From positions 1-49,710 of the forward strand of contig JAOUPX010000009.1 in the NCBI GenBank assembly GCA_029879645.1: a DNA stretch of 49,710 nt, in the 5' to 3' direction. The translations under genes and the position numbers were made by a program. This stretch comes from Nitrospinota bacterium (GTDB taxonomy: Bacteria; Nitrospinota; Nitrospinia; Nitrospinales; Nitrospinaceae). The notes beneath the pieces were generated by a model. That model saw only the letters and a program-made list of their open reading frames with translations. It was not told where the DNA came from and ran no database searches. This document shows, piece after piece, positions 1,045 to 33,415 of the stretch (within the stretch, counting starts at the first letter, position 1; each line of letters begins with the position of its first letter).

Positions 1045-1365
1045 ATGGAAGATATAACTATAAAAACACAATTGAAAACCGCCCTCAATCCGGGATTGTC
1101 CCCTGCCCAGAATCAGGCGGGTCTTGTTCCTGCTGGAAAAGCGGGTCCGTCTTTTGCTGAAACTTTGACCAAATCGATTGAAGAGGTCAATCATCTGCAA
1201 AAAGAAGCGGATCAAGCTATTGAAAAGCTGGCTTCCGGGGAATCTCAGAATATCCATGGAGCCATGCTGGCTGTAAACAAGGCAGACACTGCCTTCCGAA
1301 TGACCATGCAGGTACGTAATAAAATTGTGGAAGCTTACCAGGAAGTTATGCGTATGCAGGTGTAA
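1045..1365 (+). CDS. fliE: Flagellar hook-basal body complex protein FliE
   Basis: 106 aa; SFAETLTKSIEEVN...HGAMLAVNKADTAFRMTMQVRNKIVEAYQEVMRMQV is typical of FliE. Confidence 0.93.
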   Translation: MEDITIKTQLKTALNPGLSPAQNQAGLVPAGKAGPSFAETLTKSIEEVNHLQKEADQAIEKLASGESQNIHGAMLAVNKADTAFRMTMQVRNKIVEAYQEVMRMQV

Positions 1366-1397
1366 TTCCCCCTGTTTCCAAACTAATCATAAAATTT

Positions 1398-1422
1398 CCC
1401 GGATTTTTCCGGGTTTTTTTTT
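1398..1422 (+). terminator. Rho-independent terminator after fliE
   Basis: CCCGGA-TTTT-TCCGGG stem-loop followed by 9 T. Confidence 0.85.
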
Positions 1423-1542
1423 GCCTTCCGCCTGGGCCAATCCAGTTGACATGATTAATCAATTGGAGGATATTAATTCTCAGTAAGCAGGTCAATTACA
1501 ATACTTTTTGATCCGCAAAGTTGGGTCACGGAGGTTAAGAAT

Positions 1543-1947
1543 ATGAAACGCGTTACCATTGGAATTTTATTGTCAGGATTGCTGATATTGCTCGCCTCGA
1601 ATCCATTATGGGCTCAGGCGGGTGGGCATGCCAGTGTCGGCTTGGGGCATGGTGAAGAGGGCTATTTGCATCTTCAGGAAATGATCAAGCATTTTGAATT
1701 CAGTTTGAAAATGGACGATGCCTCACCCGAACTGAAAATGCATGGTGGAGAAGCACTGAAACATGCCCAGGAGGCGCTCAAGCACTATGATGCGGCGCTG
1801 ACCCACGCCTCAGAATCATTGGGCCGTCCGGCGGGAAATCCCATGATGGGCGGATCGGGTGGCGATCACAGCCATGAGGGTTCTGAACATGAACCTGAAG
1901 GTTCTCATGGTGGGCCGGAAATGGAAATGCCAGAGGGTTCCCACTGA
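1543..1947 (+). CDS. Secreted His/Met-rich small metal-binding-like protein (SmbP-like)
   Basis: Signal peptide MKRVTIGILLSGLLILLASNPLWAQA; helical His-rich segments (HAQEALKHYDAALTHASESL) and a HSHEGSEHEPEGSHGG tail. Confidence 0.6.
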   Translation: MKRVTIGILLSGLLILLASNPLWAQAGGHASVGLGHGEEGYLHLQEMIKHFEFSLKMDDASPELKMHGGEALKHAQEALKHYDAALTHASESLGRPAGNPMMGGSGGDHSHEGSEHEPEGSHGGPEMEMPEGSH

Positions 1948-1959
1948 CCGTTTACTGTG

Positions 1960-2985
1960 TCAGGACTCTATTGGCAGTTTGGGGTTATGGCTCCAATCCC
2001 ACCATGAACCATCATAATTCCGGACTTTGAACCCGAGATAACGGAATACAAAAAAGGCCATTGCCGACCGCACCCCTCCGGTGCAGTACACCACGATTTC
2101 CTGGTTAGGGCGTATACCTTTAGAACTTAATATAGAATCCATCGATTTGATCGGCTTCAGGTTTCCGTTCGCTTCGAAAAACTCCCGCCAATCGATATGA
2201 ATGGCCCCCGGGATATGGCCGCCTCTGGAAGAACCATAGGGTGTCGCTCCGTCATATTCGTGTTGTTCTCGATTATCTATGACAACAATGTCATCCGATT
2301 TTAAACGGCGTAATATCCAGTTCTGATCTGCTAGAATATCTTCATTAAATTTGATGTCAGACGCTTTCAGAAGGGCAGGCTTGGGATCGTTTCCAAAACC
2401 TCGCTCAACTGACATTCCTGTTTTTTCCCATTCCTGAAGCCCGCCTTTTAATAAAGCGACCCGTTTGAAACCGTAAAACTCAAACATCCAGAAAAATCGC
2501 CCATCGGTCCGCCATTTATCCTCTGGATCACCATATATAACAATAGCTTTTTGGTAATCGGCACCTAGCACGCGAAGTTTGTGCGCAATGAAATCCTTGT
2601 CCCGATTGATCTGGCCGGGAATACCTCCGGCTCGTATGGTAAATTCTTCCCAGTCGTTCAAATTGATTGCTCCGGGAATATGTCCGGCAAGAAATTTCCA
2701 TGAAGACCGGGCATCAATCAAAACAACCTGACTCCCGGGGAGATTTTGCAGATTTTTGACGGTGATAAGGGGGGCGAAATCGGGGCTTGGAAAAGCCGGT
2801 TGAAGAGGTCCTATTAACCCAAAAAACAGGATAGAAACCCTTAGTAAATGGGCCTTTATTTTCCTTGACAAAATGCGGTTTAGACTTGTACTATCATGCT
2901 TCATTTTTTGACCCCGGGCCTTGAAGTATGTTGTTTTTTTTCGGCAAATAATCCGAAATTTCCCGGTTCCCCACCCACCCAGCAA
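1960..2985 (-). CDS. Exported two-domain rhodanese (sulfurtransferase); true start probably the internal Met MKHDSTSLN
   Basis: Two rhodanese repeats (VLIDARSSWKFLAGHIPGAINL; VVIDNREQHEYDG...GHIPGAIHIDW); active-site loop CTGGVRS in the second domain only. Confidence 0.85.
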   Translation of the reverse strand: MLGGWGTGKFRIICRKKTTYFKARGQKMKHDSTSLNRILSRKIKAHLLRVSILFFGLIGPLQPAFPSPDFAPLITVKNLQNLPGSQVVLIDARSSWKFLAGHIPGAINLNDWEEFTIRAGGIPGQINRDKDFIAHKLRVLGADYQKAIVIYGDPEDKWRTDGRFFWMFEFYGFKRVALLKGGLQEWEKTGMSVERGFGNDPKPALLKASDIKFNEDILADQNWILRRLKSDDIVVIDNREQHEYDGATPYGSSRGGHIPGAIHIDWREFFEANGNLKPIKSMDSILSSKGIRPNQEIVVYCTGGVRSAMAFFVFRYLGFKVRNYDGSWWDWSHNPKLPIES

Positions 2986-3177
2986 GAATTAGAGATTGAT
3001 TGGCAGGGAAAAGCCGGACGCAGTTTTTAAAGCCTTTGTTTATAAGAATATTTTTAAAGGGTCTGGATTCAAAAATCTTTACTTTCCCTGATAATACACG
3101 GGTCCTCCCCGGTATCAGGAAATGATTTGATTAATTTTTGGGCACTATAATTCGCCAAAAGCCCGCTTGGGGAAACT

Positions 3178-4026
3178 ATGACAAACGAACAGGATAAGGA
3201 TAATTCATCTCCGGCAGATCGGTTGGATCAGATTAAACAGGAATCTCAGGAAGATGCAAGCTCCTATTATGCTCAGGGTAAATCGGAAGATGACGCTATG
3301 ACTGAAGAAGATTTCAACAAACCGGTTCCGCCAGTGGACGAAGAAAAAGAAGAAATGAATCTCATGAAAGCTATGGCTTATCTGGGATTTGGTATGGGCG
3401 CCCTTGCAATTATCGTTATTCTGTTTTTCCTCCGCGACCTCAATCATAAGGTTGGAGATGTAGACGCCGCAGTGGGTACTTTGGAAGAAAAATTTGGTCC
3501 GCTTAAAAAAGAGGTGGATGAAAGTCTGGCCAAAGTTAATGCCGATGTTTCTCAGTTAAAAGACCGGTTTGGTAATTACGAACGCCAAGCAGCAGTGACC
3601 GAACTCAAACGCGCACTGGTGGCGATTCAGACAGTTACTGAAAATACAGGCCCAGATGTCAAAGCAAAATCCGGCCAGGTCGTTGCAAGCATTGAAAACC
3701 TATTGAGAGAATTGGGCGCTGAAATACCCGGAACCACATCGGCCTCAGGAGCCGTGGCTCCGATACCCGCGCCCGCCGCAGGTACTCCGGCAACGGAAGA
3801 AAAGCCCTTTGAAATCATCCTGGATCAACCCGCAACCGAGCCTGCCCCAACGGCAGATGCCCATCCTGCGGAAGAGCCGGTTGCTGAACAAGCTCCACCC
3901 GCCGAGGAGGCGCCAGCTGAAGAGGCACCTGCGGAAGAAGCGCCTTCTGCCGAAGAACCCGCGGACGAAGCCGCTGGTGCTGAAGGCGATGGGTCCGATG
4001 ATGAAGAGGATGAAGAGGACGAATAA
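3178..4026 (+). CDS. Hypothetical single-TM protein with coiled-coil segment and acidic Ala/Glu/Pro-rich C-terminus
   Basis: 282 aa; one hydrophobic segment (AYLGFGMGALAIIVILFFL), then coiled coil, then AEEAP repeats and a DDEEDEEDE tail. Confidence 0.7.
   Translation: MTNEQDKDNSSPADRLDQIKQESQEDASSYYAQGKSEDDAMTEEDFNKPVPPVDEEKEEMNLMKAMAYLGFGMGALAIIVILFFLRDLNHKVGDVDAAVGTLEEKFGPLKKEVDESLAKVNADVSQLKDRFGNYERQAAVTELKRALVAIQTVTENTGPDVKAKSGQVVASIENLLRELGAEIPGTTSASGAVAPIPAPAAGTPATEEKPFEIILDQPATEPAPTADAHPAEEPVAEQAPPAEEAPAEEAPAEEAPSAEEPADEAAGAEGDGSDDEEDEEDE
3901..3960 (+). repeat. Imperfect 15-nt tandem repeat encoding about four AEEAP-type units
   Basis: GCCGAGGAGGCGCCA/GCTGAAGAGGCACCT/GCGGAAGAAGCGCCT/TCTGCCGAAGAACCC. 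Confidence 0.7.
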
Positions 4027-4042
4027 TTTCTTTTGAATTCCG

Positions 4043-4080
4043 GGCCTGAGACCTTATAAGGGTCTCAGGCCTTATTTATT
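4043..4080 (+). terminator. Rho-independent terminator
   Basis: Perfect 11-bp stem GGCCTGAGACC...GGTCTCAGGCC followed by TTATTTATT. Confidence 0.85.
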
Positions 4081-4102
4081 TGAACCGCTTTGGAATTCCG
4101 CC

Positions 4103-4417
4103 ATGCCTGTAAAATTTATAGTCATTCTTATTCTAGCTACGTTCATTGCCATATTTGCTGTAAAAAATCTGGAGCCTGTTGAAGTCAGTTTTTACGATGT
4201 TTATTTCAACTCTCATAATGTCCAAATCCCTTTATTTATAGTAATTATGGTTTCTATGGGGTTTGGCTTTTTCCTTGGTTGGTTTGATGGCTGGATTGCA
4301 AAAGTTAAACTGAAAAATCATATCCGCAAGCAGGATAAAACCATCCATTCTCTCAATCAGCAAATAGACCAGTTAAGCAAACCGTCTCTTCCTGAATACA
4401 ATCCTTCTAAGAAGTAA
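4103..4417 (+). CDS. LapA-domain (DUF1049-like) inner-membrane protein
   Basis: Two TM helices with FAVKNLEPVEVSF...GFFLGWFDGW and a C-terminal coiled coil. Confidence 0.7.
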   Translation: MPVKFIVILILATFIAIFAVKNLEPVEVSFYDVYFNSHNVQIPLFIVIMVSMGFGFFLGWFDGWIAKVKLKNHIRKQDKTIHSLNQQIDQLSKPSLPEYNPSKK

Positions 4418-4439
4418 ATTCTTTTTTTCGTCTTTTATT

Positions 4440-5204
4440 ATGTATCCCAAATTGCTTTCACAGCAACAATGCAAGGATTTTGACAGGGACGGGTTTCTTT
4501 TAATCCGAAAGCCTTTTGAGTCCGGTGAAATCAGCCAAATTGTGTCCTGGGTGGATGAGGTTCAGGATTATCCGGAAGTTCCCGGCAAGCACATGATGTA
4601 TTTCGAGAACAGTATTAAGAATCCGGATCGGAGAATTTTACAACGGATGGAAAATGTCTACGAATATCATGATGGGTTTCATAAGCTGTTTGACAGTGAA
4701 AATGTTAAGGGATTGGTATCAGATTTATTCGGTGAACCTTCGGTTTTGTTTAAAGACAAGATTAACTTCAAGCTCCCCGGAGGAAGTGGTTTCGACTGGC
4801 ACCAAGACCAGCAGGCGGGATGGTGGGTTTATGCAAAGATTTTTATTACGGCCCTTATTTGCATTGATCGGGTTACACCTGATAATGGGCCTCTTGAATT
4901 GGCCGCCGGGCATCATAAACAGGGACTCATTGGGAAAGAATGGGAACCGCTAAATGATGAAAACATGAAAGAAATGAGTTTTGAATCCATGATGCTTGAG
5001 CCAGGGGATATGGTGTTTTTCGACTCTTTCGTTCCCCACGGTTCGGGACCTAACCTGACCGACCAGTCCCGGCGCGTTCTCTATATCACCTATAACAAGC
5101 TTTCAGAAGGGGAGCACCGAAAGCAGTATTACGCCGACAAGCGAAAAAACTTCCCCCCCGATTGCGAACGTGATCCGGAAAAAGAATATAAGTTTCGGGT
5201 TTAG
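4440..5204 (+). CDS. Phytanoyl-CoA dioxygenase (PhyH) family protein
   Basis: 254 aa; Fe(II)/2OG-type motif FDWHQDQQAGWW ... FFDSFVPHGSGPN. Confidence 0.8.
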   Translation: MYPKLLSQQQCKDFDRDGFLLIRKPFESGEISQIVSWVDEVQDYPEVPGKHMMYFENSIKNPDRRILQRMENVYEYHDGFHKLFDSENVKGLVSDLFGEPSVLFKDKINFKLPGGSGFDWHQDQQAGWWVYAKIFITALICIDRVTPDNGPLELAAGHHKQGLIGKEWEPLNDENMKEMSFESMMLEPGDMVFFDSFVPHGSGPNLTDQSRRVLYITYNKLSEGEHRKQYYADKRKNFPPDCERDPEKEYKFRV

Positions 5205-6301
5205 TTTCCGGCCCGGGGTTGTTGCTGGGTGACGCAGTGAATAGCTCCCAATCCCCAAATAAAAGTTTCGCAGGGAATTCCTACAATTTCCCGATCCGCA
5301 AAAAATCTTTTTAAGATGTATCTGGCAACATCATCATTGGAGTGATTGTAAGTGGGTAACAGAATTGCCCTATTGCCGATATAGAAATTGGCATAACTTG
5401 CCGGCAATCTTTCTTTATCTCCCTCGATGCGGCCTGGCATGGGAAGCCTGACAATGTTCAGGGGTTTACCGTTGGTATCTCTGTATGACTCAAGGATTTT
5501 CAGATTTTCTTTGAGGCAGGCATGGTTGGGGTCTGATGAATCATCCACCCATGAGCAAAGAACGGTATTGGGGTTAACAAAACGGACCAGATTATCGATA
5601 TGTCCGTCGGTATCGTCACCTTCAATATTTCCCTGGCACCAGATGACATCCTCGACACCCAGATAGTGTCTTAAATAGGATTCCATATCAGTTTTTCCCA
5701 AGGCATTGTTGCGATTGGGATTTAACAGGCATTGTTCGGTTGTAATGCATATGCCCTGGCCATTAACCTCTATAGCCCCGCCTTCCAGAATAATACCGGG
5801 TTCGAAAGCTTCTATTTCTAACAGGTTCGTTATGGTTCGGCTCACCCGGATATCCATATCCCAAGAGTATTTTTCTCCCCATGAATTGAATTTCCAAAGG
5901 TTGGCCGCCACCTCCCGATTTCCGGAAGTGGTTTCACGGACCAGAAAGTTGGGACCATAATCGCGCATCCATGCATCGTTTGTGGGTATGAAATGTATAG
6001 TTATATTTTGAAAGTTTACGGGATTATTCTTAATAAATTTATTTAATTTTAGCGCGGCTGATTCATGATTTACCAGCAGATGGACTTTTTCCCCTTTGGA
6101 AAGAGCATTAATCATCTGTATGTAGACAGCCTCGATTTTAGACATATCCTGCCCCGGCCAGGTTGCAGGATTATGCGGCCAGGACAACCAGGTGGCGGAG
6201 TGAGGTTCCCATTCGGCTGGCATGCGGAAACCGAGATCTGCGGGAGAAGGTTTAGATATCATTCTGGTCAATAAATAAACGGGTAAGATTTTGATAGGCA
6301 T
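5201..6301 (-). CDS. aguA: Agmatine deiminase (start may be the internal MISKPSPADLGF)
   Basis: 366 aa; MPAEWEPHSATWLSWPHN, DAWMRDYGP, GNIEGDDTDGHID, and C-terminal WGLGAIHCVTQQQP catalytic Cys motif. Confidence 0.93.
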   Translation of the reverse strand: MPIKILPVYLLTRMISKPSPADLGFRMPAEWEPHSATWLSWPHNPATWPGQDMSKIEAVYIQMINALSKGEKVHLLVNHESAALKLNKFIKNNPVNFQNITIHFIPTNDAWMRDYGPNFLVRETTSGNREVAANLWKFNSWGEKYSWDMDIRVSRTITNLLEIEAFEPGIILEGGAIEVNGQGICITTEQCLLNPNRNNALGKTDMESYLRHYLGVEDVIWCQGNIEGDDTDGHIDNLVRFVNPNTVLCSWVDDSSDPNHACLKENLKILESYRDTNGKPLNIVRLPMPGRIEGDKERLPASYANFYIGNRAILLPTYNHSNDDVARYILKRFFADREIVGIPCETFIWGLGAIHCVTQQQPRAGN

Positions 6302-18781: not shown

Positions 18782-19798
18782 ATGACCACTAAAGTGGCAA
18801 TTAATGGGTTCGGGCGGATTGGCAGAAACGTCCTTAAGTGTATTTTAAAGGATAAAGAATGTGCAGATATCGAAGTCGTTGCCATTAACGACTTAACGGA
18901 TGCCGCCACTTTGGCTCATTTGTTTAAATATGATTCCGTACAGGGCATCACTCCCAATAACATTGAGTCCAGAGACAGCCAACTGTTGGTGGATGGGAAA
19001 CCTATTCGAATCCTGTCTATAAGAAACCCAGAGGAGTTGCCTTGGAAGGAACTGGGAATCGATGTGGTGATTGAATCCACCGGTTTCTTTACCAAGCGGG
19101 ACGATTCCTCCAAGCACCTGAGAGCCGGTGCCAAAAAAGTGATTATCTCAGCTCCTGCCACCGATCCGGACGTGACTGTTGTCCTTGGTGTCAATGAGGG
19201 TGAGTACGATCCTCAAAAGCATCAGCTTATATCCAATGCCTCCTGCACGACCAATTGCCTGGCACCCGTGGCTAAAGTGTTGAACGATAAATTCGGGATT
19301 CGTAAGGGGTTGATGACCACGATCCATTCCTATACCAACGATCAAAAGATCTTGGATTTACCTCACAAGGATTTACGCCGGGCCCGTGCAGCATCGGTAT
19401 CGATGATTCCCACAACCACCGGAGCGGCCAAGGCCGTTGCCCTGGTATTGCCTGAGCTCAAGGGCAAACTGGATGGAATGGCCATTCGAGTGCCAACTCC
19501 GAATGTTTCACTGATTGATTTAGTGGCCGAAGTGGAACGTGAAACTTCTTCTGAAGAAGTAAACGCTGTTTTTAAGGAAGTTTCCCAAAACGCGCTAAAG
19601 GGAATTCTTCGTTATGAAGAAAAGCCACTGGTTTCGGTAGATTATAATGGTGCCGATGACTCCAGCATCGTAGATGCCCTGTCGACCACGGTCATCGGTA
19701 AAAATATGGTAAAGATTCTGGCCTGGTACGATAATGAATGGGGCTATTCCTCCCGGACCAAGGATATCTTGAAGTATTTGATTAAAAAGGGTATTTAG
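18782..19798 (+). CDS. gap: Glyceraldehyde-3-phosphate dehydrogenase
   Basis: VAINGFGRIGRNV, SNASCTTNCLAPVAKV, NEWGYSSR; 338 aa. Confidence 0.98.
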   Translation: MTTKVAINGFGRIGRNVLKCILKDKECADIEVVAINDLTDAATLAHLFKYDSVQGITPNNIESRDSQLLVDGKPIRILSIRNPEELPWKELGIDVVIESTGFFTKRDDSSKHLRAGAKKVIISAPATDPDVTVVLGVNEGEYDPQKHQLISNASCTTNCLAPVAKVLNDKFGIRKGLMTTIHSYTNDQKILDLPHKDLRRARAASVSMIPTTTGAAKAVALVLPELKGKLDGMAIRVPTPNVSLIDLVAEVERETSSEEVNAVFKEVSQNALKGILRYEEKPLVSVDYNGADDSSIVDALSTTVIGKNMVKILAWYDNEWGYSSRTKDILKYLIKKGI

Positions 19799-19820
19799 AT
19801 TTAATAACTTAAAGTAAAAT

Positions 19821-20576
19821 ATGCGAAAACAGCTGATTGCCGGGAATTGGAAGATGAATACAACCATCCCGGAATCCCTGGAATTGATTCATCAATTGAA
19901 AGAACGGGTGTCGTCTTCCTGTCCTGCGGAAGTGGCGTTGATTCCCCCTTTCACATCACTCTCAGTGGCGGCTGCTGCCCTTAGGGGAACTGGTATCCAA
20001 CTTGGGGCTCAGAATCTTTCTCATTTGGCTGGAGGGGCTGTTACGGGTGAAATCTCCGGGGCAATGTTAGTTTCGGTCGGTTGCCGTTATGTCCTGATAG
20101 GACACTCTGAGCGGCGAAAACTGTTTCAGGAAAATGATGCGTTGATTCATTTGAAATTAAAGATGGCTTTATCCGAAGGTCTGTGGCCTATTTTATGTGT
20201 TGGAGAGTCCTGGGAAGAACGCGAGGCGGGACAGGCCAGGGATGTTATCAAGAATCAACTGGAAAAGAGCTGGAATCATTTTACCCCCATGGAAATGAGA
20301 AAAACGACTATTGCCTATGAACCAGTCTGGGCTATTGGGACAGGAAAAAACGCGCAACCGGAACAGGCTCAGGATATCCATGAACATATCCGTGCGCTTG
20401 TAGATTCCCAGTTTGGAGCGGAGTTGGCACAAGAGGTCAGAATAATTTATGGTGGGAGCGTAACCCCGGAAAATAGCTCTTCTCTTTTGATTCAACCGGA
20501 CATTGACGGAGCCCTGGTGGGCGGCGCCAGTTTGGAAGCTAATTCGTTTTATGCTATTATCGAAGCTGTTCATTAA
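19821..20576 (+). CDS. tpiA: Triosephosphate isomerase
   Basis: LIAGNWKMN, IGHSERR, AYEPVWAIGTG, YGGSVTPEN. Confidence 0.98.
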   Translation: MRKQLIAGNWKMNTTIPESLELIHQLKERVSSSCPAEVALIPPFTSLSVAAAALRGTGIQLGAQNLSHLAGGAVTGEISGAMLVSVGCRYVLIGHSERRKLFQENDALIHLKLKMALSEGLWPILCVGESWEEREAGQARDVIKNQLEKSWNHFTPMEMRKTTIAYEPVWAIGTGKNAQPEQAQDIHEHIRALVDSQFGAELAQEVRIIYGGSVTPENSSSLLIQPDIDGALVGGASLEANSFYAIIEAVH

Positions 20577-20932: not shown

Positions 20933-21017
20933 GCCGATGTGGTGGAATTGGTAGACACGTGCGCTTGAGGGGCGTATGGGGCAACCCGTGGGAGTTCGAC
21001 TCTCCCCATCGGCACCA
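20933..21017 (+). tRNA. tRNA-Leu (anticodon GAG), CCA encoded
   Basis: Acceptor GCCGATG/CATCGGC, D-arm GGTGGAATTGGTAGACACG, anticodon loop TTGAGGG, long variable arm, T-arm GGGAGTTCGACTCTCCC, ACCA end. Confidence 0.96.
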
Positions 21018-21038
21018 ATTTTCAGGGTTCCTTCGCAA

Positions 21039-21395
21039 ATGCAGGCGACCAGTTTAGGCGATATATTTTCCCATCCCAGCTTCCTTTCCATTTTACTTGC
21101 TATCCTGATCGTCATCGCTAATATCATGATTGGGGTCAGCATGCTTCCCCAAGATATCCGAATGAAGCGGTATAAACTTCATCGTTACGTATATTGGGCG
21201 GTTCTTGTCTCTTTGGGAGTTTTTTTGGTCGTCACTCACCGATTATTAGGAAACTCCCTATTCAATTATCTTGTCCTGATTTATTTTGTAACGATTATTC
21301 CTCTCAGCAGGAAATGGAATGTAACTGCACATGCGATTATTTCCTCTATCGGCTTGGTCCTTTTGGTGGGTATAGCCGCTTTCAGTATTTTATAG
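21039..21395 (+). CDS. Small 4-TM membrane protein (DUF420/cytochrome b561-like appearance)
   Basis: Four hydrophobic helices with His residues ([22 protein letters not shown]). ORF track start at 20976 lies inside the tRNA, so an ATG at 21039 is more likely. Confidence 0.6.
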
Positions 21396-21477
21396 AAAAA
21401 ATCCTCCCGTTGCCCAACCCCCAGCTAATATGCTGTAATGGTCTATTATCATTCACAACGTATTGGAAATAGGTTTT

Positions 21478-22812
21478 ATGAATGACTTTGACGTCATTAT
21501 TTTAGGCGGTGGAACAGCTGGTTGTTCTGCGGCGGAATCAGCTGCAAAACAGGGAGCCACTGTGGGGCTGGTGGAATGCGGTCGCATTGGTGGACATTCG
21601 CTGCTCCGCGGACAGCTTCCTCTCCAAATTGCATATGATTGGCAAAAACGTTCTGGAGAAAAGATTTCTTTTGCTCATCTTTTGGAAGAAGTGGAACTCC
21701 AATCCGTAATTATTGCCAAGAAAACAGAGGATCGCCTCAAAGATTCCGGTGTGGAGTTGATTCGCGGGACCGGCTTTTTAAAGGATCCCGGGAAAGTGTC
21801 TATCCGCCTGCCTGAAAAAGATATTGACCTTGAGTGCGGGAAAATTATTATTGCCACGGGATCCCAGCCCCATTCTAATTCGGCACTTCCGTTTGATGAG
21901 CATCGACTGCTCCCAATTGACCTTTTCATGAAAATGAAGAAACTGCCAGTTTCCATTTTAATTATCGGCGGAGACAAGGCTGCGCTGGAAGGAGCCCAAT
22001 TGTTTAATATGTTGGGTTGCAAAGTCTTTTTGGTAGATGAAAATACACGCTTGGTTCATGACCTGGATTCCTCTTTGATCGAAGCCCTTGAAAAAGAATT
22101 CAAAAAACTAAAAATCAAGGTTCTGCTGGGCAAAAAAATTATTTCCATTTTTAAATCTCCAGGCATGATAGACGTTACCCTTGATGGCGACGTTAAGTTT
22201 TCTACCGAAAAGATTCTGGTGTCGGCCGAACGTCATGGAAATACTTCCGGGTTGGGTTTGGATTCTCTGAAAATTGATTGCGGGAACCGTCGGGAAATAT
22301 GGATTAATGAGCAAATGGAAACATCCCGTAAGGGTATTTTTGCAGCGGGAAGTGTGACCGGGCGATCACGTTCTATTCAGATTTCAGAGGAAGAGGGCCG
22401 TGTGGCCGGGATCAATGCCGCGGGAGAACGACAATCCATTCAAAGAAGTCAGATTCCTTTTTACCTGCAAACAACGACTCCAATAGCAAGTATTGGCTGT
22501 CTTTTCGGGAAGGCGCATTTTGAGGGTTATCGTGCTGTGGAAGGCCGATATGATGTCGATCCGGGGGATACCACCGACTCATCTTTTCCTGAATTCTGTA
22601 AAATTGTAGTGGACCGTGATACGTCTAGAATCATTGGTGCGCAGGTATCGGGTCGTAATGCCTACGAAGTTATCAGTATAATTCAAACGAAAATGCGAGA
22701 AGGTGGTTTGCTCAAAGATCTTGCTCATTTTAATGGAAGTCGTGCGGCTCATTTAAAGCCTATTATTCAAGCGGCAAAAGCCTGTGCGCAGGCATTGTCT
22801 GTCCGGCGTTAA
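21478..22812 (+). CDS. FAD-dependent pyridine nucleotide-disulfide oxidoreductase-like protein lacking the redox CxxxxC
   Basis: VIILGGGTAGCSAAESAAKQGATVGLVE (FAD), IIATGSQP, ILIIGGDKAALEGAQLFNMLG (second Rossmann), GIFAAGSVTGR; the GGTCLNxGCxPSK position reads GGHSLLRGQLPLQ. Confidence 0.85.
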   Translation: MNDFDVIILGGGTAGCSAAESAAKQGATVGLVECGRIGGHSLLRGQLPLQIAYDWQKRSGEKISFAHLLEEVELQSVIIAKKTEDRLKDSGVELIRGTGFLKDPGKVSIRLPEKDIDLECGKIIIATGSQPHSNSALPFDEHRLLPIDLFMKMKKLPVSILIIGGDKAALEGAQLFNMLGCKVFLVDENTRLVHDLDSSLIEALEKEFKKLKIKVLLGKKIISIFKSPGMIDVTLDGDVKFSTEKILVSAERHGNTSGLGLDSLKIDCGNRREIWINEQMETSRKGIFAAGSVTGRSRSIQISEEEGRVAGINAAGERQSIQRSQIPFYLQTTTPIASIGCLFGKAHFEGYRAVEGRYDVDPGDTTDSSFPEFCKIVVDRDTSRIIGAQVSGRNAYEVISIIQTKMREGGLLKDLAHFNGSRAAHLKPIIQAAKACAQALSVRR

Positions 22813-22958: not shown

Positions 22959-23519
22959 ATGAGTGAACAGAAAGAGATAAAAAAACCGGCCCCGGCCGCC
23001 AACCCTGCAAAGGATAAAAAGGACGAGGCACAGGATACTCTTTGGTCGCGGCGAGACTTTTTTTCTTTAGCCGGATGGGCCAGCTTCACCGCCTCATTGG
23101 GGCTGTCTTCCCTGTATTTTTTGAGGCTTCTGTTTCCCAGGGTGTTATTTGAGCCATCACCTAAGTTTAAGGCTGGTAACCCGGGCGATTATACTGTGGG
23201 AGAAGTGAGCACCAAATGGGTGTCTGACCAGCGGGTTTGGGTAGTTCGAGATGAGGAAAAGCTCTATGCAATTCTGGCCCGCTGTACCCACTTGGGGTGT
23301 ACACCTCTTTGGTTGAAAAGTGAGAGCAAGTACAAATGTCCATGTCATGGGAGTGGTTTTACTATGGATGGAATGAACTTCGAAGGTCCTGCACCGCGTC
23401 CCTTGGAGCGTTTGAAAGTAGAAGTGGGACCCGACGGGCAAATTGTCATTGATAAGAGCAAGAAGTTTCTGTTTGAAAAGGGAGAGTGGGGCAAACCCGG
23501 GGCGTTTCTCCGGGTATAG
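22959..23519 (+). CDS. Rieske iron-sulfur protein of a cytochrome bc-type complex
   Basis: N-terminal TM anchor with WSRRDFFSLAGWA; cluster-binding CTHLGC...CPCHGSGF. Confidence 0.95.
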   Translation: MSEQKEIKKPAPAANPAKDKKDEAQDTLWSRRDFFSLAGWASFTASLGLSSLYFLRLLFPRVLFEPSPKFKAGNPGDYTVGEVSTKWVSDQRVWVVRDEEKLYAILARCTHLGCTPLWLKSESKYKCPCHGSGFTMDGMNFEGPAPRPLERLKVEVGPDGQIVIDKSKKFLFEKGEWGKPGAFLRV

Positions 23520-23566: not shown

Positions 23567-24397
23567 TTGGCCAACAAGCCCAAAATTCCGAATATAGCCG
23601 AAATCATGGCGGACTTGAAGAGCGGTAAACTGTGGAATGATCTTGCCAAGAAGTTTACCGAGTCGCAGGTGTGGACTTCTTCCTTCCGGCATGGTTATGC
23701 GGACACGCCCCGAAACAGGGTGTTGCAGATAGCGAGCAATGTCTGGCTGCATTTGCATCCGGTTAAAATCCATCGACATGCATTACGGATCAAGTTTACC
23801 TGGTGTATGGGTGGTATTACGTTTCTTTTGTTTCTTTCCACCGTTGTTACGGGTGTCATTTTAATGTTTTATTACCGGCCGGTAGGGGAATACGCTTACT
23901 TTGATATGAAGTATCTGCAGTATGATGTTCCTTTCGGCATGTTGATGAGAAACATGCATCGATGGGCGGCGCATGCAATGGTGATCACCGTCTGGTTACA
24001 CATGTTCCGTGTTTTCCTGACAGGCTCTTACAAGCCGCCGCGAGAGTTCAACTGGGTTATCGGTGTGTTTTTGGTAACCTTTACCCTGCTTTTAAGTTTT
24101 ACGGGTTACCTTCTTCCCTGGGATCAGCTGGCCATGTGGGCGGTTACCGTAGGAACCAATATGGCCCGCGGAACCCCATTTTTAGGCCATGAGGGTCCGT
24201 TTCAGGAGTTCGTCCCTCTTATCAGTCCCAGGTATGATGCCCGATCCGTTTTGTTGGGAGGAAGCCTTGTAGGCCCCCCGGCTTTGTTGCGCTTTTACGT
24301 TTTGCATTGCATTTTTATTCCACTGGTGGCCGGTGCTCTTATGATTGTCCACTTCTGGAGAATCAGAAAAGATGGTGGTATTTCCGGCCCTCTTTAA
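23567..24397 (+). CDS. Cytochrome b (b6-type N-terminal subunit), TTG start
   Basis: [15 protein letters not shown] and [17 protein letters not shown] heme ligands, [15 protein letters not shown]-terminal [12 protein letters not shown]. Confidence 0.95.
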
Positions 24398-24448: not shown

Positions 24449-25204
24449 ATGGCCACTGCCGTTAAAAAGAAGACTGCTGAGGATTTACCGGAAAAAGTCC
24501 ATGTTTGGCCTTATCTGGTTCGCCTTGAGTTTTTATGCTCGCTTATCGTTATTATCGGTTTGGCGGTGTGGTCGATTGTAATCGATGCCCCCCTGGAAGA
24601 AGCGGCAAATCCAACTAAGACACCTAATCCGTCCAAGGCGCCATGGTATTTTTTAGGCCTGCAAGATATTCTCGTATATTTTGATCCCTGGTTTGCGGGT
24701 GTTATCGCGCCAGTGTTGATCATTGTTGGTTTGATGTTGATACCTTACCTGGATGTCAATCCCAAGGGTAACGGTTACTATACTTATACAGAACGAAAAT
24801 TCGCTATTTGGGTATATTCATTCGGTTTCCTGGTTTTATGGATTGCCCTTATCATCATGGGTGTTTTCCTGCGCGGTCCTGGTTGGAATTTATTCATGCC
24901 TTGGCAGTATTGGGATCCTCATAAAGTGGTGGCTCTGGTAAACGTTGATCTTCCATATGCGTTTGGATTTCGGGATTACTGGTATTCGGCTGCATTTGGA
25001 TTCTCAGTGGTGCTTGGTTATTTTATTCTGGGAACTGCCGGTTATATGTTTTTGGAGCGCAAAGCCATCAAGAACGTCGGTATTCTTCGAATGTTGCTGA
25101 AGATCAATCTGTTGCTGATCATGATTGGAATTGTAATTAAAATTGTTTTAAGACTGGCGTTCAACATTAAATATATTATGGTCACTCCCTGGATTAACAT
25201 CTGA
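24449..25204 (+). CDS. Cytochrome b C-terminal / subunit IV-like protein
   Basis: 251 aa; SKAPWYFLGLQDILVYFDPWFAGVIAPVLIIVGLMLIPYLDVNPKGNGYYTYTERKFA, multiple TM helices. Confidence 0.88.
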   Translation: MATAVKKKTAEDLPEKVHVWPYLVRLEFLCSLIVIIGLAVWSIVIDAPLEEAANPTKTPNPSKAPWYFLGLQDILVYFDPWFAGVIAPVLIIVGLMLIPYLDVNPKGNGYYTYTERKFAIWVYSFGFLVLWIALIIMGVFLRGPGWNLFMPWQYWDPHKVVALVNVDLPYAFGFRDYWYSAAFGFSVVLGYFILGTAGYMFLERKAIKNVGILRMLLKINLLLIMIGIVIKIVLRLAFNIKYIMVTPWINI

Positions 25205-25217
25205 GATTCAAAATCAC

Positions 25218-27911
25218 ATGACAGAAGATTCGAATAGAAAAGAAGGAGAATTTGACGAGACCACCTCGTACAGTTTTCTGTATTTCCTGGTGGCTGGCGC
25301 CGCCTTATTTGTCACCCTGTGGGCTTTTTGGGATGATGAGTACACCCGGCGTGGTTATAAGGAATTTCAGGATGTTTTCTACAAGGAGCAATTTGCCCTT
25401 GCTGAAGCTGAATTTAAAGAGGTCAATGGGAAAATTCAGGCTAAAGAGCAAGAAATTGTAGCTGCCATAAACTCTGAAGAGCAGAAAATGGCGGATAGCC
25501 ATGAATATGAAGAACTTGCCGAAGCCGCTCTTGAAGCTCAAATTCATTTAGATGAGGTTACCGAAGAGCAGAAGTTTGCTAAAAGCCGGTTGGATGAGTA
25601 TTACTACTATTATAAAAAAGCCATGCACGAAGGTAAAAACTTCGAAGTCCAACTGGCCAAAGTTGAAGATACTAAAAAGGAAATTAAGCATTACGATCCC
25701 ATCATTGAAGATGCTGTTCGCGAAAGAGATGATGCCGAGGAGAAACTTCTAAAATTTAAGGCAAAAAAGGAAACTCTGCAAAAGGATCTTGCCAAGCTGG
25801 TCAATGATAAGGTTATTCTTGAGGGCCGGATGGATTATTACAAACCCTATCCTTTTTTCTGGAAACCGGCTGAAATTCTTCAAACCGTCATACCTTCTTA
25901 CGGTAAAAATAATTTCCAGGAAGTTACCTATAAAGTTGATCGCTGTCATACCTGTCACATTTCCTATGATGATGAACGTTATGAGAATTTTGAGAACCCC
26001 CTGAAATCCCATCCTAATCGGGAAATATACATAAAGAAGCACGATCCGCTGGTAACTGGTTGTACTTGGTGCCACAAAGGCCAGGGAACAGCAACTGCGC
26101 CAACGGAAGACGCTCATGGTTCTCATCACGAGATGGATCAATCTGTAGGCATTAACGAACCCATTCTTGCGGGTAGCTTGATGCAGGCAAACTGCCGGAA
26201 TTGTCATGCTGCCCAATTGGAATTGGAAGGCGCTCCGGTACTTACAAAAGGCAAAAAATTATTCATCAAACTTGGTTGCCATGGTTGCCATTTGGTTGAT
26301 GGTTATCAAAAAGAACGTAAAGTAGGTCCAAGCCTCCTGCGCATTGCGTCTAAAGTGGATTCCAGTTGGCTGGTTCGATGGGTCAAGAAGCCGAGAAATT
26401 ATCTGCCTAAAACCCGTATGCCCAATTTTAGCCTGAGTGACGAGGATACTTTAGCTATTTCAGCCTATATATGGAATGTCTCTGAAAAAGGTTATCAGCC
26501 GGCTGAAAAATATCAAGGGGGAGACCCGGCAAAGGGTAAAAAGCTTTTTGAAACAGTCGGATGCCAGGCCTGCCACAAAGTTAATGGAAACGGAGAATTG
26601 TTTGGTCCTGATTTAACGAATATCGGGCAAAAAGTGAATCCCGATTGGCTGGTCAGCTGGATTAAAAATCCGGACGAATATAATCCCAAGAGTATTATGC
26701 CTAATCTCCGGTTAACTCTGGAGCAGGCAACAGATATAGCCGCATATCTACTTCAGTTCGACCAAAAGCGTCCGCAAGAGGGCGTGGAGGACCAACTCAA
26801 TGATCCTGAGTTGATTAAACTGGGTGAAACCCTGGTGAGACGTAGAGGCTGTTTCGCTTGTCATGATATCAAAGGTATGGAAAAAGAGGGACGAATTGCT
26901 CCTGAATTGTCGGCTTTTGGTAACAAGCAAGTCCGGGAACTGGAGTTTGGCGATTCGCACATTCCTCATACGTGGGAATCATGGGCCCGTACTAAATTGA
27001 AAAATCCACGGGCTTATCGAACCGAGCGTATTCTGGATAAAATGCCCAACTTTGAATTAAAACCGGATGAAGTAGAAGCTTTGTTAGTTTTACTCAAAGG
27101 GTTTAATGGAGTAAAAATTCCAGAGCAGTACCAAAAAAATTATACCGAAAAAGAGAAGACGATAGAAAGAGGGCGACGTTTAATCGCTGAGTATAATTGC
27201 CGGGGTTGCCATGTGGTGGGCCGCACAGGTGGCCATATTCAGGAATACCTTTCATCTAAAACACAATATCCCCCTCCTTTGGAAATGGGTGATTATCATG
27301 TAGGAGAGCGATTAAAGGGGTCCTGGCTGTTCTCATTCCTTAAAAAGCCGACTCCTGTAAGAACATGGATGAATGTTCGTATGCCGACTTTTTCCTTTAC
27401 CGATAAGGAAGTCCGTGACATGACCGCTTATTTTGAAGCCATGTCTCCGAGCGAAATTAAGTATGAGACAGGAGTTCATGTCAAAAAGAGTAAAGCCAGT
27501 ATTCAAGAGGGCGTAAAAATTGCAAATTATATGGATTGCGGTAAATGTCACGATGAAGGAGCTAAAGGAATTGACTTCTCAGTTGCCGCCCAACGGTTAA
27601 AGGAGGGTTGGATCCCCAAGTGGTTGAAGGATACCCGGGGAATGATTCCTTGGACTTTAATGCCCAATCATTGGAACAAGGTTGATGATAAGTATACTGT
27701 TCCCACAAAATTCAGTGAACTCCGGACCTTTGAAGGTGGGAATACCGATTCTCATATCAAGCATATCAGTGATTTGATCCTTTCTTATAACACCGCTGAA
27801 GATATTGATTTTGAGGCCTCTTTGGGTGGCGGGGGTGAAGATGAGGAAGATACCGGAGATGGCGGTGCTGAAGAAGCGGCCGATGGTGAAGATGAAGAAG
27901 AGGATGAATAA
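25218..27911 (+). CDS. Membrane-anchored octaheme c-type cytochrome with N-terminal coiled coil and acidic C-terminal tail
   Basis: 897 aa; one N-terminal TM; in-frame CxxCH at 25944, 26061, 26193, 26277, 26562, 26850, 27198 and 27537 (8 sites); repeated MPN/MPT cytochrome c modules; DEEEDE tail. Confidence 0.93.
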   Translation: MTEDSNRKEGEFDETTSYSFLYFLVAGAALFVTLWAFWDDEYTRRGYKEFQDVFYKEQFALAEAEFKEVNGKIQAKEQEIVAAINSEEQKMADSHEYEELAEAALEAQIHLDEVTEEQKFAKSRLDEYYYYYKKAMHEGKNFEVQLAKVEDTKKEIKHYDPIIEDAVRERDDAEEKLLKFKAKKETLQKDLAKLVNDKVILEGRMDYYKPYPFFWKPAEILQTVIPSYGKNNFQEVTYKVDRCHTCHISYDDERYENFENPLKSHPNREIYIKKHDPLVTGCTWCHKGQGTATAPTEDAHGSHHEMDQSVGINEPILAGSLMQANCRNCHAAQLELEGAPVLTKGKKLFIKLGCHGCHLVDGYQKERKVGPSLLRIASKVDSSWLVRWVKKPRNYLPKTRMPNFSLSDEDTLAISAYIWNVSEKGYQPAEKYQGGDPAKGKKLFETVGCQACHKVNGNGELFGPDLTNIGQKVNPDWLVSWIKNPDEYNPKSIMPNLRLTLEQATDIAAYLLQFDQKRPQEGVEDQLNDPELIKLGETLVRRRGCFACHDIKGMEKEGRIAPELSAFGNKQVRELEFGDSHIPHTWESWARTKLKNPRAYRTERILDKMPNFELKPDEVEALLVLLKGFNGVKIPEQYQKNYTEKEKTIERGRRLIAEYNCRGCHVVGRTGGHIQEYLSSKTQYPPPLEMGDYHVGERLKGSWLFSFLKKPTPVRTWMNVRMPTFSFTDKEVRDMTAYFEAMSPSEIKYETGVHVKKSKASIQEGVKIANYMDCGKCHDEGAKGIDFSVAAQRLKEGWIPKWLKDTRGMIPWTLMPNHWNKVDDKYTVPTKFSELRTFEGGNTDSHIKHISDLILSYNTAEDIDFEASLGGGGEDEEDTGDGGAEEAADGEDEEEDE

Positions 27912-31151: not shown

Positions 31152-31850
31152 TTATCTTGAATACCGTTCTTCGAGCCAGGGATCGGCGGTGTTGGAGTAG
31201 CCTCGTTGTTCCCAGAAGCCCAGTTCATCTTCCTCGCGAAAAACGATTTCGCCGATCCATTTGGCTCCCTTCCACGCATATAACTGAGGAGTGATCATGC
31301 GTACCGGGCCGCCGTGCTCTTTTTCCAGAGGTTTACCTTCCCACTGGTGGACCAACAGAACGTCATACTTCATAGCCTCTTCCAGGGGCAGGTTGGTGGA
31401 GTAGCCGTCATAGGCCTTGATATAAACATATTTTGCTTCGGGTTTAATTTGGCAGTAATTGGCAATGTCAGAGAAGCGAACGCCTACCCAATGATTGTCC
31501 AGCCGGCTCCATGTGGTGACGCAGTGAAAATCGGAGATATCCTCAACCTGGGGGAAATCCATGAAGGCCTTCCAGTTGAACATTTCCGGATTTTCAACCA
31601 GCCCCGAGACTGTAAGGCTCCATGCCTCGAGAGGAATTTCAGGCTGAACCCCCAGGTCCAGTACCGGCCATTTCTCCGTAACATTCTGACCGGGAGGAAT
31701 TTTAGGCATTCCATCGCGGTTCGGGGGCCCCTGGCCGAGAGGCATTCCGCCTTCCCACGGTTTCTGTTCCGCTATGGATTTTTTGTACTGGATCATCGCC
31801 TCGCGGGATTTGATTCTTTTAGAGTCTGCGTTGGGCTCAGGTATATTCAT
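31152..31850 (-). CDS. Sulfite oxidase-like molybdopterin-dependent oxidoreductase (no signal peptide)
   Basis: DFHCVTTWSRLDNHWVGVRFSDI, GGPVRMITPQLYAWKGAKWI. Confidence 0.88.
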   Translation of the reverse strand: MNIPEPNADSKRIKSREAMIQYKKSIAEQKPWEGGMPLGQGPPNRDGMPKIPPGQNVTEKWPVLDLGVQPEIPLEAWSLTVSGLVENPEMFNWKAFMDFPQVEDISDFHCVTTWSRLDNHWVGVRFSDIANYCQIKPEAKYVYIKAYDGYSTNLPLEEAMKYDVLLVHQWEGKPLEKEHGGPVRMITPQLYAWKGAKWIGEIVFREEDELGFWEQRGYSNTADPWLEERYSR

Positions 31851-33415
31851 TTCGAGGAAACCAGTTCCAGTAAGATTGCAGTGCCCGGAAGATAGGACTC
31901 GATGGGGGATTGGGAACGATCGTTTAAAAATGCCTCCAGAAATTCGAGAGACGCTCCTCCGCCAGTGGAAACGAAAAAATTAGATGAGAAATAATTAAAT
32001 AGGGTGTAAGTGTCTTTTTCTTTAAAATTAATTGAAAGCAGGGAGGAGTTGACTGTTTTATTTAATTGGTGGATGATGTTTTTCCGAATCAGATTTTCAA
32101 GATCATTGATATTGATTTTGTCTAGAATAGCGGCGGAATCGCCTCCACCGATGACCACTGAAAGACTTTCATCAACAATCGCCGCGGCAAACAAGACCTG
32201 AGCCAGTTTGACTGAACCTTCCGCATAATAATCACAATTGGGGTGATCATAGGCTCCCAGAGGTCCATTCCAGAAAATTTGTTTAATTTGACCTTTTTGA
32301 AGGATATTTTTGGAATAGTTAACAATGGTTTTGGGCCCAAGGTCCAACTGAAAATCCTGGGAAAAGTCGGGTTCGGATTGAATGGTATAATCCGTTTCAA
32401 AGTAATCCTTTGTGATTTTATAATCATCAGGGAAAATAATATTGACACCGTTGATGACCGCCAAACTTAAAATATTATGCGCCAGCCTGATTTCATTCAA
32501 CAGGTCCTGGCATTCCTCCTCGCTTTTATTCTCATACATTTTAGGCGGGATAAGTTTAAGATCCAGCGAGTCAATATCCTTTTCCAGCCTGCGGGCCAGT
32601 AGAAAAGCATTTACCATTCGGCCGCCGATAAAGATTAACTTGATTTTTGACTCCACAAACTGTTTTAATATACCGATTTTGTCCGCAATTTTGGCTCCTC
32701 CGGCGATCACGGCAGTTTGTTCCGGGTGTTCAAGTACACGCTTCCCGAATTGACCTAAATGTACAATTTCCTCATGAAGGAGGGTTCCTGCAACCGCTAA
32801 TTTGCCTGCCTTACGCATTATTTGAGGAAGTATCTTGATACTCTTGGTGACGCGGTGACTGCATCCAAACGCGCAATTAATGAAAACATCAGAAACTTTG
32901 CCCAATTCTTCGATAAACTCCTGCCGGTAGGTATCCGGGCTGCGAGGGTCGAGAAGGTATCTGAGATTAGGAAGAAACTTAATTCCGCCCTGGGGAAGCT
33001 GGTGAGAAAAACAAATTTCAAGGGAATTCTTTAAATGAGAATCGGTAATTTCAGGTGGAAATATAGTATAGGTATCCCCGTATAACTTTCGGATCAATGT
33101 GTCAAAATGAGAGCAGACAAACTGAATGTTGAAAATGCCGTCCCAACCATGGCGGTCCAGCTTCTTGTGAGGGCGGCCTAAATGAGAACCGATAATAATT
33201 CTACAATTTCCATCCGTAAGCTCGTGAATTCTTTTAAACGTCATGTCCAAAAAACGGCGAATGCGGGTATCGTCCCCAACCCGATAACCTTTCGGCGTGG
33301 AAACCAGAGGAACGTTGAAATCCACGCGAATAAAAATTGTTTTGTTGATCAAGTCCTCTGGGCGCAAATCATCCAGAAGAGGCATTTTCAATTCGTTTTC
33401 AGAGATGGCGTCCAT
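31847..33415 (-). CDS. pgk: Divergent, enlarged phosphoglycerate kinase (522 aa)
   Basis: RVDFNVP, DDTRIR, SHLGRP, GGAKIADKI, FWNGPLGAYD, GGGDSAA, STGGGASLEFLE. Confidence 0.88.
   Translation of the reverse strand: MDAISENELKMPLLDDLRPEDLINKTIFIRVDFNVPLVSTPKGYRVGDDTRIRRFLDMTFKRIHELTDGNCRIIIGSHLGRPHKKLDRHGWDGIFNIQFVCSHFDTLIRKLYGDTYTIFPPEITDSHLKNSLEICFSHQLPQGGIKFLPNLRYLLDPRSPDTYRQEFIEELGKVSDVFINCAFGCSHRVTKSIKILPQIMRKAGKLAVAGTLLHEEIVHLGQFGKRVLEHPEQTAVIAGGAKIADKIGILKQFVESKIKLIFIGGRMVNAFLLARRLEKDIDSLDLKLIPPKMYENKSEEECQDLLNEIRLAHNILSLAVINGVNIIFPDDYKITKDYFETDYTIQSEPDFSQDFQLDLGPKTIVNYSKNILQKGQIKQIFWNGPLGAYDHPNCDYYAEGSVKLAQVLFAAAIVDESLSVVIGGGDSAAILDKININDLENLIRKNIIHQLNKTVNSSLLSINFKEKDTYTLFNYFSSNFFVSTGGGASLEFLEAFLNDRSQSPIESYLPGTAILLELVSSK

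Follow-up and report, generated by a model that had tools for sequence, protein, structure and literature searches.

The octaheme cytochrome c encoded in the window, the 49,710-nucleotide stretch of Nitrospinota contig JAOUPX010000009.1 (assembly GCA_029879645.1) that we analysed, is very probably the cytochrome c subunit of a b6f-like quinol:cytochrome c oxidoreductase (complex III), replacing cytochrome c1 or f. The assignment follows from the position of its gene directly after those for a Rieske protein, a split cytochrome b6 and subunit IV, as the fourth and last of the series (Table 1). This context is the decisive point that the original prediction, made from the sequence alone, lacked. 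The boundaries of the octaheme open reading frame (ORF) are exact, and the reverse strand beneath it is riddled with stop codons, with no comparable coding found there. The host genome (3.2 Mb, 94% complete) contains genes resembling nitrite oxidoreductase alpha and beta subunits, matched at the subfamily level only and below curated cut-offs, as well as a second, separate Rieske/cytochrome b cluster.

Table 1. Genes of the complex III operon and parts of the octaheme protein in the window.
Feature	Coordinates	Strand	Details
Rieske [2Fe-2S] protein	22959..23519	+	186 aa; PF00355
Cytochrome b6-like subunit	23567..24397	+	276 aa; PF00033, PF13631
Subunit IV-like cytochrome b C-terminal part	24449..25204	+	251 aa; PF00032; about five transmembrane (TM) peaks
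Octaheme cytochrome c subunit	25218..27911	+	897 aa
N-terminal transmembrane anchor	25272..25349	+	residues 19-44 (AF2 helix); TM segment at about residues 14-44
Long-helix (coiled-coil) region	25356..25841	+	residues 47-208; AF2, conservation
Three-heme head, hemes 1-3	25881..26231	+	CxxCH 243, 282, 326; predicted distal ligands H265, H275, H300
Module 4, class-I cytochrome c	26235..26489	+	CxxCH 354, Met401
Module 5, class-I cytochrome c	26520..26777	+	CxxCH 449, Met494; PF00034 best stretch 438-513
Module 6, class-I cytochrome c with insert	26808..27113	+	CxxCH 545, Met609
Module 7, class-I cytochrome c with insert	27156..27455	+	CxxCH 661, Met722
Module 8, divergent class-I cytochrome c	27495..27797	+	CxxCH 774, Met815
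Acidic tail	27798..27908	+	residues 861-897; 20 D/E, no K/R; low-confidence in AF2

The three upstream proteins have the conserved residues of a b6f-type complex, that is, a split cytochrome b with its heme ligands and a Rieske protein with its cluster motifs. The cluster motifs C109-T-H111 and C127-P-C-H130-G-S132 are conserved in at least 95% of 75 Rieske sequences, and the best PDB match of this protein is the Kuenenia Kustd1480 Rieske protein (9rk3, E 1.1e-47). Histidines H131, H145, H247 and H262 of the cytochrome b6-like subunit are invariant in 81 sequences, 94% of which also have C80, a candidate heme cN cysteine. Histidines immediately preceding the first TM helix are also retained in these 81 relatives, H42 and H62 without exception and H64 and H71 in nearly all. 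The QP (quinol) site of subunit IV carries the motif APWY (residues 64-67), shared by at least 97% of 77 relatives, in contrast to the usual PEWY found in this genome's second complex (L121, ORF 3556-3966). No match of the octaheme protein to cytochrome f, as the c-type subunit, was found in Pfam or NCBIfam. Elsewhere in the window, a divergent, insertion-rich phosphoglycerate kinase of 522 aa (31847-33415, minus strand) is encoded apart from the GAPDH and TPI genes (18782-20576).

An 'atypical octaheme cytochrome c' was reported in this operon of Nitrospina gracilis by Lucker et al. 2013, who note it in Kuenenia and Methylomirabilis too (PMC3578206), so the subunit has been known since 2013 and is not new. 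The N. gracilis protein agrees with ours in phylum, in the Rieske-b6-IV-octaheme gene order and in heme number, and three features of the Nitrospina/Kuenenia type are present here: adjacency of the Rieske, b6 and IV genes, eight heme motifs, and an anchor followed by long helices. In the accessible portion of that article we found no description of modules, ligands, helices or tail (PMC3578206); what appears to be new here, relative to the portions of the earlier literature available to us, is the repeat plan, the heme ligands, the paralogues and the spread among phyla. A 2025 paper models the Kuenenia protein Kustd1485 of the complex Kustd1480-1485, in which the Kustd1480 Rieske protein has a potential of +335 mV (PMC12954380). 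As described there, Kustd1485 resembles our protein in being an anchored multiheme subunit of a b6f-like complex, with long helices (AF3) and hemes in groups of two and three (PMC12954380); this likeness is one of description, the sequence comparison being that of the Rieske partner Kustd1480.

Two further systems bear a partial resemblance. In Geobacter, ExtS is likewise a cytochrome c encoded beside Rieske and split cytochrome b genes (ExtO/P/Q), but it is a small lipoprotein (262-position model) with four predicted hemes, and its gene belongs to a large cluster encoding many cytochromes that has been linked to selenite/tellurite reduction (PMC5877670). The NCBIfam ExtS model scores 91.7 bits against the octaheme modules, under its cut-off of 100. 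QcrC of the actinobacterial bcc complex is a complex III subunit with a pair of class-I domains, and it aligns to modules 4-5 (about residues 340-515). It differs in having two hemes and neither a three-heme head nor a coiled coil; the QcrC anchor is C-terminal.

The Rieske-b6-IV-octaheme operon recurs in at least seven phyla. Among 80 named cytochrome b loci, some of them cut by contig ends and with taxonomy taken from the submitters' titles of the metagenome-assembled genomes (MAGs), some of which are doubtful, the gene set was found in Nitrospinota, NC10/Methylomirabilota, Binatota, Zixibacteria, Ignavibacteria/Chlorobi, a Chlamydiota MAG and Myxococcota. The gene order is conserved in the first five of these; in KSB1, cytochrome b, subunit IV and the octaheme protein are encoded side by side, with no Rieske neighbour detected by similarity, and in one locus (L102) the octaheme gene is upstream of the Rieske gene. 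The octaheme protein was detected in 36 of the 41 genomes of the sample of relatives, including all 25 of good quality. Of 31 good-quality Nitrospinota genomes, 29 encode it, and nearly all complete relatives have eight heme motifs. Three Myxococcales loci lack an octaheme gene beside the Rieske-b-IV genes, a point against the complex III reading; a related long ORF is encoded elsewhere in the same genomes. A locus in which the hemes are divided 3+5 between two ORFs (L108) was considered as an ancestral split and rejected, being explained by a single stop codon that the fused homologue in L096 lacks.

Within the octaheme protein, the N-terminal TM helix, the separate three-heme cluster and the acidic tail of the original prediction are all real, as judged from the ORF, motifs, hydropathy and composition. 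The CxxCH motifs of modules 4-8 are 95-116 residues apart, linkers included, compared with 28-44 for hemes 1-4. Each of hemes 4-8 is followed by an MP motif that contains the methionine listed in Table 1, and the Pfam Cytochrom_C model matches several stretches of the protein (E 1.4e-39). That hemes 4-8 belong to duplicated one-heme modules, as had been proposed, is borne out by self-alignment against shuffles with CxxCH held fixed: modules 4 and 5 share 36 of 81 residues (z 27), and most other pairs score z 6.7-11.8. Module 8 is clearly similar to modules 4 and 5 alone (z 7.3-7.5), with no clear similarity to module 6 or 7, and hemes 1-3 show none to modules 4-8 or among themselves.

Modules 4-8 have the class-I arrangement, with CxxCH followed by an invariant Met ligand and a match to PF00034. 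Their kinship with SoxX, the QcrC diheme protein and mitochondrial-type cytochrome c is apparent by sequence as well as by fold. The fold evidence covers modules 4-5, within a modelled fragment that also includes the head (residues 213-525, pLDDT 82.5), for which Foldseek returned Kuenenia Kustd1711, SoxX, mycobacterial QcrC and mitochondrial cytochrome c. The search with the full-length AF2 model gave coiled-coil and helical look-alikes only, none below E 0.001.

H265, H275 and H300, as well as the five methionines, are invariant in all 39 aligned relatives, and the octaheme protein is therefore predicted to contain five His/Met and three bis-His hemes. Module 8 of one Binatota member, however, is degenerate (RMKQW), and its Met may have fallen into the column by coincidence of the alignment. 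Hemes 1-3 are closely spaced and without Met, as originally described, but they are not short of ligands: the three invariant histidines can serve on the distal side, which likely accounts for the missing Met. Across the 39 relatives, every one of the eight hemes thus has a conserved candidate sixth ligand. Low potentials are common among bis-His hemes, and the fit of three such predicted hemes to a chain fed by a high-potential Rieske cluster is puzzling; this point speaks against the complex III reading.

Between anchor and head, the AF2 model (mean pLDDT 82, with good confidence through the heme part) places helices at residues 47-92, 95-137 and 143-208 (pLDDT about 90), with near-invariant F120, S123, D126, E127, Y130 and A135. 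The hydrophobic periodicity of residues 46-210 peaks at 102.9 degrees, at 0.092, above the 95% shuffle level of 0.081. The coiled coil that had been proposed thus stands as about 160 residues of long helix, whereas its signal in the sequence alone is modest. The acidic tail, probably disordered, is confined to Nitrospinota as far as the alignment extends: it is present in all 21 aligned members of the Nitrospinota order and in L084, a relative from the same class, and absent from the NC10, Binatota, KSB1, Zixibacteria and Ignavibacteria/Chlorobi members. A docking role for the tail is a conjecture.

In a tree of the modules of 16 relatives (88 columns; many inner forks are open), each positional module forms one clade, with bootstrap values of 91-100, and all five groups are obtained with the least possible number of changes. 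Because each of these clades extends across phyla, the duplications preceded the spread among phyla. The fusion, or modular assembly, originally suggested for the protein is supported by paralogues in six loci (L084, L137, L139, L142, L143 and L145), which combine a TM anchor, the three-heme head motif and 2-6 modules. There are six hemes in L139, five in L142 and L143, at least nine in L145, nine in L084 and, across a stop codon, eight in L137, where a single TAG just after heme 4 breaks the gene (1237-3288). L142 lacks the third histidine of the head. The anchor is separated from heme 1 by 48-53 residues, which leaves no coiled coil in these proteins.

In L137, L139, L143 and L145 the paralogue adjoins an ORF with cytochrome b sequence; of these four, the one in L137 is confirmed by Pfam, with N- and C-terminal cytochrome b domains. 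The L084 paralogue is upstream of the Rieske operon of that genome; there, this nine-heme protein and a two-heme cytochrome (1948-5289) directly precede the Rieske-b-IV-octaheme genes. The octaheme proteins form one clade in a tree of the head plus module 4 (support 96/95). Since the paralogues share anchor and head without the coiled coil, the latter looks like an insertion between the two in the octaheme line; this is the simplest reading, the tree being unrooted and also compatible with loss in the paralogues. Tentatively, these proteins may represent a widespread, as yet undescribed class of complex III cytochromes c, composed of an anchor, a three-heme bis-His head and 2-6 class-I modules. 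Within it, the octaheme clade would have gained the coiled-coil insertion and Nitrospinota the acidic tail, and complex III output would be tuned by gain and loss of modules.

In the mechanism that we propose, the long helices would hold the octaheme protein firmly to the Rieske protein and the rest of the complex. Electrons would be exchanged between the Rieske cluster and the hemes near the membrane, and would travel among all eight hemes, three of them bis-His and five His/Met, on their way to periplasmic carriers; in nitrite oxidisers they would probably also move in reverse, reducing quinone. In the lineage that has it, the acidic tail would help a basic carrier to dock. The protein as an 'electron wire', proposed originally, is plausible but unproven.

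The wire, although not membership in complex III, is contested by a possible but somewhat doubtful alternative in which the five modules are loosely tethered, independent sites for docking or electron storage and the core path consists of the Rieske-adjacent hemes only. The wide CxxCH spacing of modules 4-8 with their linkers would fit such an arrangement, as would the range of module numbers in the paralogues, which suggests that the exact number is inessential to such subunits. Against it, the octaheme clade keeps exactly five modules in fixed order across phyla, all candidate ligands are invariant, and the AF2 confidence remains good in the heme part.

It is improbable that NAD(P)H is produced through the low-potential branch of the complex, the role proposed in Kuenenia, while the octaheme protein receives the high-potential electron. 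The Kuenenia operon Kustd1480-1485 encodes an NAD(P) oxidoreductase in addition, and an extra heme b has been proposed to be bound by His62 of Kustd1481 (PMC12954380). The closest match of our Rieske protein is Kustd1480, the invariant H62 of cytochrome b is a candidate counterpart of Kustd1481 His62, and a pyridine-nucleotide oxidoreductase gene is upstream in most Nitrospinota loci. However, the upstream protein is a lipoamide-dehydrogenase-like flavoprotein whose likeness to Kustd1483 is only putative, and it diverges further than the Rieske protein, down to about 30% identity compared with no less than 69%. In the window this flavoprotein and a small four-TM protein are encoded at 20976-22812; the pair precedes complex III in the majority of Nitrospinota loci, with neither protein detected in loci from other phyla.

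An independent octaheme enzyme of the HAO or nitrite reductase type, merely neighbouring complex III, could be imagined from the eight hemes and the nitrite-oxidoreductase-like genes of the genome, but is highly improbable and was rejected, given the class-I modules, the lack of any HAO or nitrite reductase family match in Pfam and NCBIfam, and the candidate sixth ligand on every heme, which leaves no obvious open catalytic heme. An outer-membrane conduit was likewise rejected, there being no family match and an N-terminal anchor of the inner-membrane type.

The octaheme protein is, then, a known kind of subunit with an informative anatomy. In the textbook complex III, electrons are handed to one heme; here, in one of the major groups of marine nitrite oxidisers, nitrite-dependent methane oxidisers and several uncultured phyla, that job would be done by an eight-heme protein. 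The three invariant histidines and five invariant methionines, together with the series of paralogues that share the head and differ in module number, provide testable predictions on how electrons may move forward and in reverse.
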